DNA of 44,993 nt from Bacteroidales bacterium (GTDB lineage: Bacteria; Bacteroidota; Bacteroidia; Bacteroidales; UBA932): assembly GCA_017437125.1 (NCBI GenBank), contig JAFSBV010000030.1:1-44993 (forward strand), in the 5' to 3' direction. Below are positions 1,657-7,142 of this stretch, in pieces. Each line of letters opens with the position of its first letter. Position 1 is the first letter of the stretch. The notes beneath the pieces are model-generated. The model searched no databases, had not been told where the DNA came from, and was given only the letters and a program-made list of their open reading frames with translations. A program made the translations under genes and the position numbers.

Positions 1657-1673
1657 GTGCTCCCCCAGGGGCT
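1657..1673. repeat. Left attachment site of the tRNA-Lys island (attL-like)
   Basis: GTGCTCCCCCAGGGGCT is identical to 6884-6900, which covers the 3' end (acceptor and T-arm) of the tRNA-Lys(CTT) gene, and to 6983-6999 in the second copy. A detached tRNA 3' fragment at a distance from the intact gene, on its 3' side, is the classic footprint of a tRNA-targeting tyrosine recombinase. The alternative is a remnant of a deleted tandem tRNA copy. Confidence 0.65.
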
Positions 1674-1987
1674 ATAGTATGATTTGCAACTCATTGATTC
1701 TCAAACACGGTCTCAAAAATGAACAACAGATTAACAAACAGTTATTTTCGATTACCGTTTTATAGTCCTTTAGGGTCTATTATAGTTCGATTATCAACTT
1801 CAAATTCTCGGTAGCTTTGAGTTATAGTTTGATAAAGTATGATACAGTTTCAGAACCAAACTTAACAAGCATTTATTTTAAAGAACGTATATTTCCGTTG
1901 GGGCCACAAAGATATACAATATTCATTCAAACTACAAGCATACGGTATAGTAGTTAATTTGTCATTTGCTCTGAATATTACTACATG
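1673..1987. other. Gene-free left end of the island with repeated TATAGT-type motifs
   Basis: This AT-rich stretch of about 315 bp has no convincing ORF. It carries several direct copies of a motif close to TATAGTNNGAT: 1673-1683, 1781-1791, 1823-1833, and a weaker one at 1834-1843, plus TATAGTCCTTT at 1761-1771. Their position next to the attL-like repeat would suit arm-type integrase or excisionase sites, which is inference. Confidence 0.4.
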
Positions 1988-4900
1988 TCATTTTTTAAAT
2001 CTGATGGCACGTCGGTTTGTTGTAATTTGGCTATCTCTTGGATTCAGACTTACTGCCTGTATTATCTTCTGTCTATCCGAGAAGGTAACATGGTTATTAT
2101 ATAAATATGATCTCACTCTAGCTCGTATAATACTCATCGCGACAGGATTATCGTTCAATTCCTCTACCAAATCCTTTAGCTCAGGGATAGCGATCTTAGA
2201 GAAACAGCTGATTATTGAGAAGGAGACCAACTTGGCAGCCGGACTACCTATTTCCTCTGCAACTTGAGTAAATATTGCTCTCAACTCTTTAGTACCAACA
2301 GAATTTATCATTTTTGAGAATACGAACAAACAGAAGTTCAATGAAGTAATCTCGAAAAAAGCATCAAGTTTCTTCTTTATCTCATCATTAGAAATACCCT
2401 CTTTCTTATTCTTAATAATATCATCTATCACCTGAGCTTTATCTGTTTCTACGATAGTTCCAAAATAACTAATAGTACGGAATGCTGTTTCATACATCTG
2501 CATAACCATTGCTTTGATATCTGTTTTAGGCAAAGATCCCTGGCGATTTTTAACAATCTGTCCTACGACCTCTATAGAGCGCAATGCCTTGTTCATGTTC
2601 TGTATCTCAACAGGAAGAGCATTAGGATTAACCTTATCTTTAGACAAATATTTATCCCTTTCGTCCATTTTCCTCAACATATTCTCACGCTCTTTCTCTG
2701 GATCGATTTTCTCTTCAGGAGCAACTATTTCTTTCTTAAGACTCTCACAAAGTTCGTTTAACAAAGTGTAATATTTATCATCTCTTTTTAACGTTACTGG
2801 CTCCTGTCTTTCAAGAGCAGAAGTCAATGCTAATTGAGTCGCTTCAATAAATTGTGGATTTTTGATGTGGTGAGCAATAAAAACAAGGATATTAGATTTC
2901 TGCTCATCATGAATATTTATACACAAATCCAAGATATCGTTCACCCCCTCTTCAGAGTGAATATTACCTGCCATATATTTTGCAACTAAAAAATAATAGA
3001 TATAGTTATAGGAGAACCTATAGTAATAATCATCTGTACATTTAAGTAGATTGCATTTAAGGAGATTATTCTTTGTCTCTTTGTATCCTTGTGTAAAATA
3101 AGTATGTTGATATTTTGTATAGAAATCCGAAAATTCTGCCTCAGATATAGATTTACCATTTTTAGTATATATAAAGTATGCTAGATTCATCAAGACATTA
3201 TAGTATCTATCAATCTTCGTTTTATCTTCCACACATGTCATCAAGGCACATGTTATCAGCGCTTCATAACAATATCCATAAGACGTTTGCTCCAGCGAGG
3301 TACCTTGAATCTTAGTATTAGACAATAGTATAGATAATATATAAATCGGATATGATGGCATATATTCCTTACCCAGGAAATTCTCAACCATATCAAACCC
3401 CGCTTTCACTTGTTCCAACAACACCTGTTGCTGTATTGTTGATGCATTAACATTATATGTGGAATAAAATTTTTTCACCAGTTCATTCCGTTTCAGGTGA
3501 CCGAGAGGTTTAATGCGAGCCAACAGTGCATCTTTCTTTTCCATAAGATAATAAGACGAAGCTACATTCTCATTCTCTCTAGTAGTAAGAACTACCTTAT
3601 GAAAGCGATCGACAAGTCTGTCTATAATATTCTTCTTTGCTGTATCATTTAACGTACACTCATCAAAATTGTCAATAAGTAACACTTTACGGGCTTTATC
3701 ATATTGACCATATTTCTCCTTTTCATCACTATTATACTGTTCCGAAAAAGCATTCTCAATAAGTTTGTCAAGCTTATCATTTGTAATATTTTTACCCTTT
3801 ATCAGAACCGGATACATATACCTATCAACAAAGCGAAGATAAAACATATTTAGCAAACTCGTCTTTCCGCTCTGATCATCACCTTCAAGCATAACTAGAT
3901 TAAACTGAACATCATCTATAATGGTCGAACTATCAGTAAAATCTTCATCTACTTTAATATGTTTTGTGTTTATACGTTCAAGATCTGGAAACACAAAAAA
4001 CTCATCAAGTGTCATCTTCGCATTCTCACTATTGTGAATAGGAATTGACATCTTTTTCAGTGACTTCAGAAAAACGTCATTATGACGAAACTCATCAGTT
4101 TTCCTTTCATTGTTCAAATCCACAGATTCTTCCTTCTTCTTAGAATATATACCACTCGAATATTCAAAAGATCTAACGGTACAATCGAATGAGTCCAAAT
4201 CTATTACAAAGCTATTAAAAGTAGACTCTCTTGTACCACCAGTTTGACCAGAATACAAAGTACCTCCTTCAAATTCATTAACAACCTCTCCTTCATAGTG
4301 ATCCACAATTTGTGAAGATGATGGTGTATGCTCATGACCAAACAACACTATATTCGAAGTCTGCATTATGCGCTTTCTAAAGTTGTTCTTATTATTGTCA
4401 CAGGCGGGAGTCAACCATGAATAATGATGATGAAACAAAGAAATCACCAAGTCTGCATTACAAGTCTCTTGTACCAGCATATTCATTGGCACAACAAGAC
4501 TATTCTGACTTTCATTCATAGTGGACATCCATGCAGTATTATATAGTCTGAAAAGAATAGTCTTATCTCCAACTCTTATAGGTAGATCATTATTGATCGA
4601 GAGTACATATTCCTTATCAATCATAATGTCTCGAGCAAAGGATTGATACTCTTTTTGAATAGCGGAGACCATGTCATATACGCTTTTGTCAACTGTTTCC
4701 AAATTCGAGCGCACACCATTAAGCAGCATAGTCCTTGCTTTTGTATCATTGTCAAAATTACAATCATGATTACCTGGTACGCAGATAATTTTATTCTCCA
4801 GTTCGGTTTCTCTCAGATTTCTTTCTGCAAAGGACCTTAATAAAGCCTTAAAGAAAAGTTTTGCATAACCATACTACTCTTCTTTTCCGGAATAGACAAC

Positions 4901-5047
4901 ATCGCCAGAAACAGCTATAATAATCTTATTACATTCCGAGAAATCATTCCATATAGCGGAAACTATATGATTCGTTTTATTTATGAGCCATTGATAATTA
5001 CTACTATCAATATGTAAATCCGAAAGATGTAAAATAGCGACTTTCAT
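1988..5047 (-). pseudogene. Metallophosphoesterase-P-loop NTPase fusion interrupted by an amber codon
   Basis: The frame starts at ATG 5047 and would encode 1019 residues, but codon 58 (4874-4876) is TAG; the remainder reopens and is complete from Met107 (4729). The N-terminus is a calcineurin-like phosphoesterase with all metal-binding motifs: SDLH (9-12), SGD (47-49), GNHD (92-95), HHH (206-208) and GHEH (237-240). Next is a P-loop NTPase with Walker A GDDQSGKTS (389-397) and Walker B VLLIDNFDE (about 455-463), then a long helical C-terminus. The layout of an N-terminal effector, a STAND/NACHT-like switch and a C-terminal sensor is that of many antiphage proteins; a defence role is inferred. 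Starting at 4729 would lose the first metal ligands, so without readthrough the enzyme is dead. The stop lies where a Gln (CAG) would fit. Base composition is much richer in AT than the flanking genes. Confidence 0.75.
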
Positions 5048-5112
5048 AGTAATAGATTATTAAATTGTTAGTATCATGGTCTTCTTAACCTTCATCGTCA
5101 AAACATATATAA

Positions 5113-6324
5113 CTAGTATAGAAATCCTAACATCCAGAGTGGTAGTTTTGCGCCATCTGGCATATCCCAATCGTCGGCAAATACGTATGAGTCTTTGAGA
5201 CCGGCGATCTGAGAGAAGTCTTTACTTCGGCCGCCAATTTCAAAAGTGTATCTGCCATCTACCTTGAAGTCTCCTTGTGTCTTTCCATATTCTACACGAT
5301 GACATTCTGCCAAACTATTGATGGCAAAACATTCGCGAGCCGTTCCTATATCAACTTTACCTGGAGCGAGAGCGTGAAGGAGGTTAGGATTCTCCATATA
5401 TACTTTATCCGGTTTGGATAGTTTGCCCATCTTCTTTTTATCAGAGTAGAGAAGGTTAAACACTTTGGCATCTCCAAGGTACTTAAGATATTCGACCACA
5501 GTATCACGTCCTATCTCCAATGAGCCAGCTAATTTGTTAGCGTTCAACTCAAATGGAACTTCTTCAGCAATGAGTTTCACCAGTGCCTGAATCTTTCGTA
5601 TGTTTGAGACATCAACATTACATATTTGTGGCAACTCTGTCTCTATGATGTAGTTCACGACTTGCTCTATACGAGTGTAGTATTCGTTCTCACCTTCAAG
5701 AAGGAATGGATAGTAGCCTTTTTCGAGGTATTCTTTGAATAGGACTATCGGTTTACACTTTGATGTCACCATCTCCCACAATTCGTATGGGCGTGACAAG
5801 ATATCCTCTAACGTCCATTTAGGAAAATCCAAAGCATGATAGAACTTCAGGGCCTCGCGGAATGAAAGTCCTGGCATAGTATACTTGATAGCACGACGTG
5901 AAAGATCCGCATCACCTTCTCTGAGTTGGAGAAGAGACGAACCGCTTACAATGAGCTTGAGAGATGGGAAAAGTTCATATATCTCTTTGACTTCCTTGCT
6001 CCAGTCCATTGTCCCGGGCTTGTATTTATGGATCTCATCAATGACAAGCAGTTCTCCACCGTGAATATGGAACTCCTCTGCAAGCCCTACCAATGTTCTC
6101 GTAGAAAAGTCAACCGTGTCTGCTGAACAATATAGAACGCTTCGGTCTCCTGGCTGGTAGTTCTGCTTGATATGCTGTTTGATAAGCGTGGATTTACCGA
6201 CTCCTTTTGGGCCCATAATACTTATTATTTGCGCATTCCAATGAATCTGATCCATCTTTTCACGGATGATCTTCATTGATGTATTGGCCAAAAGCCTGTC
6301 GTGTTTTCTATATAAAGCATCCAT
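5113..6324 (-). CDS. AAA ATPase with DUF4143 C-terminal domain
   Basis: A 403-residue P-loop ATPase of the AAA_14/DUF4143 type that is widespread in Bacteroidales accessory DNA and of unknown cellular role. Walker A is GPKGVGKST (38-46), Walker B is LLVIDE (92-97), and a sensor-like SGSS follows. The C-terminal DUF4143 part has nuclease-fold-like ends (a YTFEIGGRSKD segment) but I cannot assign activity. A TTG at 6369 could extend the frame, but the promoter TATATTTG (minus strand, 6344-6351) lies inside that extension, so ATG 6324 is the start. A perfect 14-bp inverted repeat covers the promoter, suggesting self-repression. The phosphoesterase-NTPase gene follows 65 bp downstream on the same strand and may be cotranscribed. 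Confidence 0.85.
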   Translation of the reverse strand: MDALYRKHDRLLANTSMKIIREKMDQIHWNAQIISIMGPKGVGKSTLIKQHIKQNYQPGDRSVLYCSADTVDFSTRTLVGLAEEFHIHGGELLVIDEIHKYKPGTMDWSKEVKEIYELFPSLKLIVSGSSLLQLREGDADLSRRAIKYTMPGLSFREALKFYHALDFPKWTLEDILSRPYELWEMVTSKCKPIVLFKEYLEKGYYPFLLEGENEYYTRIEQVVNYIIETELPQICNVDVSNIRKIQALVKLIAEEVPFELNANKLAGSLEIGRDTVVEYLKYLGDAKVFNLLYSDKKKMGKLSKPDKVYMENPNLLHALAPGKVDIGTARECFAINSLAECHRVEYGKTQGDFKVDGRYTFEIGGRSKDFSQIAGLKDSYVFADDWDMPDGAKLPLWMLGFLY

Positions 6325-6343
6325 ATCATCAAAATTTATGAGC

Positions 6344-6385
6344 CAAATATAAGAAAAGTGTTGCGCCAAAACAACACTTTTCTTA
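6344..6385 (-). promoter_or_regulatory. Promoter and 14-bp inverted-repeat operator of the DUF4143 ATPase
   Basis: TAAGAAAAGTGTTG (6350-6363) and CAACACTTTTCTTA (6372-6385) are exact reverse complements separated by 8 bp. The minus-strand -7 element TATATTTG (6344-6351) overlaps the inner edge of this repeat. A dimeric repressor on the palindrome would exclude polymerase. The ligand is unknown. Confidence 0.6.
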
Positions 6386-6424
6386 AAAAGTGATGGTCAC
6401 ACGCGACAAAACTACAACTTAAAT

Positions 6425-6823
6425 CTATCCCCAGAAATAAATCTTCAGGATTGCATATAGTATGACTGCACTGCGGGTGAAACAGATTGTCTTGCGGTTT
6501 AGCCGCTTCAAGTGGGTTCGGAGGTTCAGGTTGTGGCGTTCTATATGAGTTGTTCCCCGTTTTCCTCGGACATGTACTTCACATGGAACCAACGACAGGT
6601 AATGTACCAGATAATCCGTATAGACTTTTGACGGCGCAGAACTGTTGACAGTCTTGAAAATCGTGGATAACATTTCAATGGACCTGCCACCTACATTAAA
6701 GGCTACGACTTCCTTAGACTTTCTGTCAAGAGCGTAACCGATCCATAACGGCTTGTGCTTATTACCCAGGAATGTCCACATTTCATCCACCTCATACTCT
6801 CGATGAGGTTTTATCCGTGGCAT
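6425..6823 (-). pseudogene. IS1-family transposase, 5'-truncated
   Basis: This 132-residue frame is the catalytic half of an IS1-type (InsB-like) transposase. It begins around the YEVDEMWTFLG motif that holds the first acidic catalytic residue, includes VYTDYL, and ends with the conserved HIERHNLNLRTHLKRLNRKT and ILYAILKIYFW segments. The same frame continues nine codons further upstream (IKKIADSIE before the Met) and then meets TGA. The N-terminal zinc-finger/HTH part (InsA region) is missing. The break lies about 30 bp from the tRNA-Lys attachment site, so the element was probably cut when the island formed or rearranged. It should not be able to transpose on its own. Confidence 0.8.
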
Positions 6824-6859
6824 CTCAATACTATCTGCTATCTTCTTGATTCAAACAAA

Positions 6860-6883
6860 AAAGGCGGTTAAAAAACCGCCTTT
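6860..6883 (-). terminator. Terminator of the tRNA-Lys operon
   Basis: AAAGGCGGTT (6860-6869) and AACCGCCTTT (6874-6883) form a perfect 10-bp stem with an AAAA loop. On the minus strand a T-rich tract follows. It lies directly next to the tRNA 3' end and, by the att-site reading, was brought in by the island. Confidence 0.85.
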
Positions 6884-6900
6884 GTGCTCCCCCAGGGGCT
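6884..6900. repeat. Right attachment site of the island (attR-like), inside tRNA-Lys
   Basis: Same 17 bp as 1657-1673. It contains the 3' acceptor strand, discriminator and part of the T-arm of the tRNA on the minus strand, so integration would leave the tRNA intact. Confidence 0.65.
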
Positions 6901-6957
6901 CGAACCCTGGACCCCAACATTAAGAGTGTCGTGCTCTACCAACTGAGCTAGGGAAGC
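6885..6957 (-). tRNA. tRNA-Lys (CTT), copy 2
   Basis: A 73-nt cloverleaf. The acceptor GCTTCCC pairs with GGGGAGC, the D stem is GCTC/GAGC, the anticodon loop is CTCTTAA (anticodon CTT, reads AAG), and the T arm CAGGG-TTCGAGC-CCCTG is canonical. CCA is not encoded. It is identical to the copy at 6984-7056, and its 3' end is the likely integration target. Confidence 0.95.
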
Positions 6958-6983
6958 AATAAATATTTAAAGAACTTGTGTGG

Positions 6984-7056
6984 TGCTCCCCCAGGGGCTC
7001 GAACCCTGGACCCCAACATTAAGAGTGTCGTGCTCTACCAACTGAGCTAGGGAAGC
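6984..7056 (-). tRNA. tRNA-Lys (CTT), copy 1
   Basis: Same sequence over all 73 nt as the neighbouring copy; anticodon CTT. It lies in the middle of a three-tRNA operon transcribed leftward. The perfect identity suggests recent duplication or gene conversion. Confidence 0.95.
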
Positions 7057-7069
7057 ATAATTTTTTCCG

Positions 7070-7142
7070 TGATTCGCATGGGGCTCGAACCCATGACCCC
7101 AACATTAAAAGTGTTGTGCTCTACCTACTGAGCTAGCGAATC
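7070..7142 (-). tRNA. tRNA-Lys (TTT)
   Basis: A 73-nt cloverleaf. The acceptor GATTCGC pairs with GCGAATC, and the anticodon loop CTTTTAA gives anticodon TTT (AAA/AAG). It is the first tRNA of the operon. Its anticodon arm closely matches the CTT copies, while the acceptor stem differs. Confidence 0.95.

Follow-up and report, generated by a model that had tools for sequence, protein, structure and literature searches.

A DS-8 family gene split by a single amber codon on a small tRNA-Lys unit of an uncultured Bacteroidales bacterium

In all likelihood the gene described here belongs to a known anti-phage family and was broken only recently. It can be read as DS-8 cargo at the 3' end of tRNA-Lys that has been inactivated, recently or polymorphically in the population, by a nonsense allele at codon 58, and we give this reading a probability of about 0.72. 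The stop is best read as a recent nonsense allele, and an assembly error comes second. A newly validated system is thereby placed in uncultured Bacteroidales, where it sits, in this case, on a small tRNA-Lys unit. Loss of function in a gene that is otherwise preserved agrees with the idea of quick gain and silencing of defence genes. The term window is used for the whole stretch of DNA that was analyzed (44,993 nucleotides); its features are listed in Table 1.

Table 1. Features of the DS-8 gene and of the tRNA-Lys unit (positions in the window)
Feature	Positions	Strand	Remarks
DS-8 family gene (metallophosphoesterase, nSTAND/NACHT NTPase, C-terminal region), interrupted once	1988..5047	-	1,019 codons; from translation, profile searches and alignment
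In-frame TAG, codon 58	4874..4876	-	sense codon in 6/6 distinct full-length relatives aligned
57-codon N-terminal piece holding D10, H12 and D49	4877..5047	-	from translation, profile match and alignment
913-aa frame from the first ATG after TAG (codon 107)	1988..4729	-	lacks SDLH, SGD and GNHD; keeps FHHH, GHEH, NTPase and C-terminus
AAA_14/DUF4143 ATPase	5113..6369	-	PADLOC candidate PDC-S01; DUF4143 just under cut-off; 65 bp upstream of the DS-8 gene
IS1-family transposase remnant	6425..6823	-	C-terminal half of the model matched
Three tandem tRNA-Lys genes (CTT, CTT, TTT), apparent integration site	6884..7142	-	
17-nt core, tRNA-Lys 3' end	6884..6900		present again at 6983-6999 in the neighbouring tRNA-Lys
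Far copy of the 17-nt core	1657..1673		exact, same orientation
Conserved element end without listed gene	1657..1890		four ACTATA motifs (counted in the window); also in G039, G476, G208 and G344

Reading frame, domains and family membership

Translation of the minus strand starts with the ATG at 5047 and runs through 57 open codons with the motifs SDLH and SGD until it meets the TAG at 4874-4876. The 961 open codons that follow contain GNHD, FHHH, GHEH and GDDQSGKT and end with the TGA at 1988-1990. Of these, GDDQSGKT is a Walker A motif. Given the base composition of the gene, chance alone would put about 82 stops into 1,019 codons, and one internal stop is observed. The first ATG past the TAG is codon 107 (4729), which lies 3' of GNHD. 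A sequence-only reading of this DNA had held that the missing motifs SDLH, SGD and GNHD are restored upstream in the same frame across one TAG and that there is neither a frameshift nor any other lesion; translation confirms the former and alignment with six distinct full-length relatives the latter.

With X placed at the stop the whole frame reaches 833.3 bits against the NCBIfam model NF053861 (DS8_antiphage) and so passes its cut-off of 790. Taken alone, the 961-aa piece scores 772.7 bits and stays under this cut-off; the 57-aa piece aligns with the start of the model (44.9 bits, E 3.5e-12). The five intact relatives from the loci L006-L010 pass with 798 to 852 bits. In the 961-aa piece the Pfam domain nSTAND_NTPase4 passes as well (29.4 bits, cut-off 27) and Metallophos remains under its cut-off, whereas the intact relative L006 passes both. 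Thus, the motifs of an N-terminal metallophosphatase are all found in one frame though the TAG splits them, and a P-loop NTPase of the NACHT/STAND type is represented by GDDQSGKT together with nSTAND_NTPase4. The single uninterrupted frame of NF053861 is lacking due to the TAG at codon 58, and therefore the window gene is regarded as a DS-8 relative by descent and probably not as a working system. Its phosphoesterase fold is a predicted one, assigned from the letters of the frame: a profile of the N-terminal domain found only weak matches among solved structures, the best being LMO2642 (E 0.0017) and the next a phosphohydrolase (E 0.016).

DS-8 is a validated anti-phage family with a metallophosphatase joined to a NACHT NTPase, for which reduced phage plating was published after cloning in E. 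coli MG1655 and for which mutants of the metallophosphatase and NTPase domains show that defence requires both (PMC13092281). Searches of the literature on DS-8, and on metallophosphatase, NACHT and phage in combination, yielded nothing beyond this paper. That the gene is of the STAND antiphage type had originally been deduced from its layout; this assignment is now supported by the DS8_antiphage and nSTAND_NTPase4 cut-offs passed and by the published DS-8 mutants.

Eight residues (D10, H12, D49, N93, H94, H206, H238 and H240) do not vary among the five relatives that make up the N-terminal alignment, and all of them occur in the window frame. In the metallophosphoesterase superfamily such residues are metal ligands. 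The short product retains D10, H12 and D49 and has no NTPase; a product restarted at codon 107 retains H206, H238 and H240 and lacks five of the eight. Because neither fragment has the full metal site, which the published mutants show to be required, no defence is to be expected from the window copy as long as the full-length protein is absent. The single stop signal thus probably switches the gene off. One might assign to the restarted 913-aa product a job of its own, for example as an effector-less regulator, since an ATG-started frame of this length is present and keeps the NTPase and the C-terminal region. Its start falls, however, within the phosphoesterase domain, between conserved motifs, and no comparable short version is seen in the six aligned relatives, so that we attach hardly any weight to this alternative.

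The tRNA-Lys unit and its surroundings

The description of the locus as a tRNA-bounded island is borne out by the 17-nt repeat of the tRNA-Lys 3' end, which recurs directly at the far boundary, and by a matching site without the island in the related genome G066. Exact copies of the core are found three times in the 2.8-Mb assembly, twice within tRNA genes. The enclosed unit (1657-6883, 5.2 kb) has a GC content of 36.8% as compared to 47.3% for positions 7300-44993 and 44.3% for positions 1-1656. Its content, counted as frames of at least 50 aa kept between 1657 and 6883, consists of the DS-8 gene, the AAA_14 ATPase and the IS1 remnant; no integrase was found among frames of this size. A comparison of the 5.2-kb unit with phage records gave no match. 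A Fic-domain gene (DUF4172 and Fic, 256-1395) lies close to the contig end, immediately beyond the far core copy.

In G066 the tRNA trio runs directly into the hairpin that in the window lies past the far core copy. When the flanks are joined, their alignment spans 446 columns at 86%, of which only about 52 bases are past the core, and this site is consistent with absence of the unit. The far flank adjoins the tRNA in one of the four relatives compared, namely G066, and not in the other three; the site without island is therefore provided by this genome only. Conjugation and mobilisation genes are found on the far-flank side in G066, and due to the conjugation genes this flank may represent an element end instead of plain chromosome.

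A stretch of about 212-262 bp adjoining the far core was found again, at 85-93%, in four other genomes of the genus (G039, G476, G208 and G344) among 400 genomes searched. Eleven other genomes show short or weak matches to the end only, including G066, G262 and G455 with 34 query bases at the edge of far flank and core. G039 has an exact copy of the core, G476 and G344 have an altered one, and G208 has none. A helicase-DUF2726 gene, HipA and an HTH gene lie between the conserved end and tRNA-Lys in G039 (L164, 943-5331). At this locus (L164) the same hairpin sequence adjoins both core copies. In G476 a fragment of a helicase lies on the element side, with TIR and AAA_14/DUF4143 genes on the opposite side. 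In G344 one scanned neighbour is without Pfam match and a second appears lipoprotein-like by eye, and in G208 only 197 bases of the element side precede the contig end; no defence gene was seen beside the end in the scanned parts of these two genomes. Given the neighbours in all four genomes, the conserved end could not be upheld as a marker of defence cargo only. It may be an attachment arm belonging to a small integrating element that lacks an integrase of its own.

Around the close relatives of the gene about 10-11 genes were picked at L006-L009 for scanning, a selection from all genes present. At L006 a gene for an AbiLi-like ATPase and a DUF3226 gene are found upstream and an Eco57I-type methylase gene downstream. 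The neighbours at L007 are AbiEi and AbiEii, those at L008 a pair of AAA_5 and McrBC genes, and those at L009 a GmrSD-type gene, an AAA_14/DUF4143 ATPase and type I restriction genes. Each of the four loci thus has at least one scanned neighbour that matches a defence model or a restriction-type domain, and the clearly housekeeping contexts that would have spoken against a defence role were not seen there. The ATPase at L009 is of the same AAA_14/DUF4143 class and is placed as the one at 5113-6369 of the window, but a different PADLOC PDC-S01 model matches it best. At L006-L010 the examined stretches are free of tRNA genes in all five cases, which shows that a setting at tRNA-Lys is not the rule.

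Relatives, age of the stop and competing readings

Relatives were obtained from a scan of genome contigs (five loci, L006-L010) and from a search of 200 related genomes, three of which, the own genome included, gave a match. The alignment comprises seven rows and six distinct relatives, as L003 and L009 are the same sequence over the part compared (100% identical in the alignment). All six are open throughout, with 84, 78, 72, 70, 35 and 28% identity to the window, all six possess the N-terminal phosphoesterase, and all six have a sense codon in the column of the TAG. With the DS-8 model three of 400 genomes of the genus and at least three of 393 genomes of the order reach the cut-off, the own genome being included in both counts. 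The own match alone holds the stop: no second amber-bearing DS-8 over the cut-off was detected in the 400 genus genomes, nor among the matches listed from the 393 order genomes. Matches of any strength are present in 103 of the 400 genus genomes and in at least 163 of the 393 order genomes (own included). Of 14 control genomes 7 have a match as well, but in no control genome does it exceed the cut-off. The matches under the cut-off are mostly short and single-domain; a few of those listed hold TAG or TAA and were kept out of the stop tally. No DS-8 relatives were found in phage records. In IMG/VR eight stretches fit a pattern and none was confirmed, and the stop allele of the window, searched as an exact 26-mer over the stop, had no match in IMG/VR viral contigs.

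Comparison of the window gene with L006 gives pN 0.080 and pS 0.637 over 1,014 codons, which indicates purifying selection. With L007 as outgroup amino-acid changes make up 98/268 on the window branch vs 64/212 on the L006 branch (Fisher p 0.15), so that the window branch leans to more amino-acid changes, not significantly; with L008 as outgroup the values are 74/217 vs 72/211 (Fisher p 1.0). Synonymous sites between the window and its nearest relative are near saturation and dating of the stop is therefore coarse. As no decay of the frame is visible the stop should be recent, polymorphic or an error. If it is real, the inactivation would be recent, or polymorphic among members of the population, as normal purifying selection seems to act on the remainder of the frame.

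The same undamaged and selected frame would be expected if the TAG were an error of sequencing or of the assembly consensus, or a variant of a minority strain, and the gene in fact an intact DS-8; the assembly, moreover, consists of 99 contigs and is about 91% complete. On the other hand, the TAG differs at two positions from the codons of L006 and L007 and at one from that of L008 (counted for these three), which means that one miscall suffices only if the window lineage already differed from L006 and L007 there. We consider such an error unlikely.

Besides fresh inactivation and sequencing error, which both stay in consideration, the sequence-only reading had offered read-through as a third option, and for this no support was obtained. 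Release factor 1 (RF1) is encoded in the host genome, over the model cut-off; none of 41 tRNA matches, all checked with ARAGORN, in the assembly (about 91% complete) has the CTA anticodon of an amber suppressor; and TAG terminates 9 of the 32 window ORFs tallied, picked from a list of 81. These three observations make read-through by the host unlikely, and reassignment of TAG in the host code was rejected on the same grounds. One could still imagine that the host reads this stop through usefully, by near-cognate tRNAs or a special context, and makes some full-length DS-8: purifying selection is still seen over the whole frame, and a small dose of a costly effector could conceivably pay. Yet RF1 is present and CTA is lacking among the tRNAs, and the stop is shared by none of the six aligned relatives and by no other match over the DS-8 cut-off (in the order, among the matches listed), which renders this version very improbable.

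The most speculative possibility is an amber-gated defence, in which the stop would silence a costly effector until a phage that brings an amber-suppressor tRNA completes the protein and arms DS-8 against itself. The residue in the TAG column is identical in the four close distinct relatives, and it is one that such phage suppressor tRNAs probably insert. Zeta crAss-like phages, some of them assigned to Prevotella or Parabacteroides, have tRNAs with a CTA anticodon; the same paper contains the opposed suggestion that suppressor tRNAs may aid phages against host defence (PMC12386605). Amber gating would rest on one case, with no second amber-bearing DS-8 over the cut-off (in the order, among the matches listed). 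A literature search on premature stops and defence brought up no paper to the point, judged by titles and the beginnings of abstracts. Amber gating appears a far-fetched explanation, but if true, gating of an amber codon by phage suppressors would be a new trigger logic for immunity.

Proposed function and comparison with known systems

In the preferred reading of a recent nonsense allele, a small element that has inserted at the 3' end of tRNA-Lys would carry the window gene as its DS-8 family cargo. Were the copy a working one, its C-terminal region may sense a cue of infection, the NACHT/STAND NTPase would then switch and probably oligomerise, and the N-terminal metallophosphoesterase may hydrolyse a nucleotide-type substrate so that phage growth is blocked. 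The nonsense allele at codon 58 would split the effector domain, and the window copy would give no DS-8 defence.

A tblastn search of plasmid records with L006 gave eight records. Three are annotated as metallophosphoesterase, one of them aligned across 99% of the query, and five are annotated as TIR-domain proteins and are aligned only over NTPase and C-terminus. All three TIR proteins scanned (from genome G525, from one of three Vibrio records and from a Lactococcus plasmid record) combine TIR with nSTAND_NTPase4, and their matches to the DS-8 model begin at 301, 299 and 310. Two TIR proteins show 27-28% identity to the window in pairwise alignments over 689 and 708 columns. Genes with TIR joined to a DS-8-type NTPase and C-terminus were located at L114 (1459-4026), L165 (1-2622) and L166 (2458-5022). 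Homologues without an N-terminal phosphoesterase had been named beforehand as evidence against the proposed role; they are absent among the six full-length relatives, and distant ones do exist, of which the three scanned all carry TIR instead. The replacement of the phosphoesterase by TIR argues for an exchange of effectors and not for a non-defence protein. By analogy with other STAND defence proteins this suggests that the phosphoesterase may act as effector and the remainder as switch and sensor, and the exchange points to NTPase plus C-terminus as a reusable sensor-switch.

Among known systems the closest is DS-8 itself (NF053861, DefensePredictor, PMC13092281), with which the window gene shares the full-length match over the curated cut-off when X is set at the stop and the union of metallophosphatase and P-loop NTPase in one gene. 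It differs in that the window copy is split by TAG at codon 58 and resides in an uncultured Bacteroidales bacterium, the comparison being made via the family model and not via the letters of the published protein. DS-9A (NCBIfam NF053862) has a related N-terminal phosphoesterase (E 1.1e-11, 44.3 bits), but the window frame is far under its 420-bit cut-off and no HAD phosphatase occurs among the six window frames scanned. The best model of PDC-S60 covers residues 265-944 of the 961-aa piece (E 1.5e-64) and a second one matches residues 20-639 of this piece as well as the 57-aa piece; PDC-S60 is, however, a candidate family (PDC) in PADLOC and its best model is without the N-terminal third. The TIR-nSTAND_NTPase4 proteins of G525 and of the Vibrio and Lactococcus plasmids share the homologous NTPase and the long C-terminus and differ from the window gene in having TIR where the latter has its phosphoesterase.
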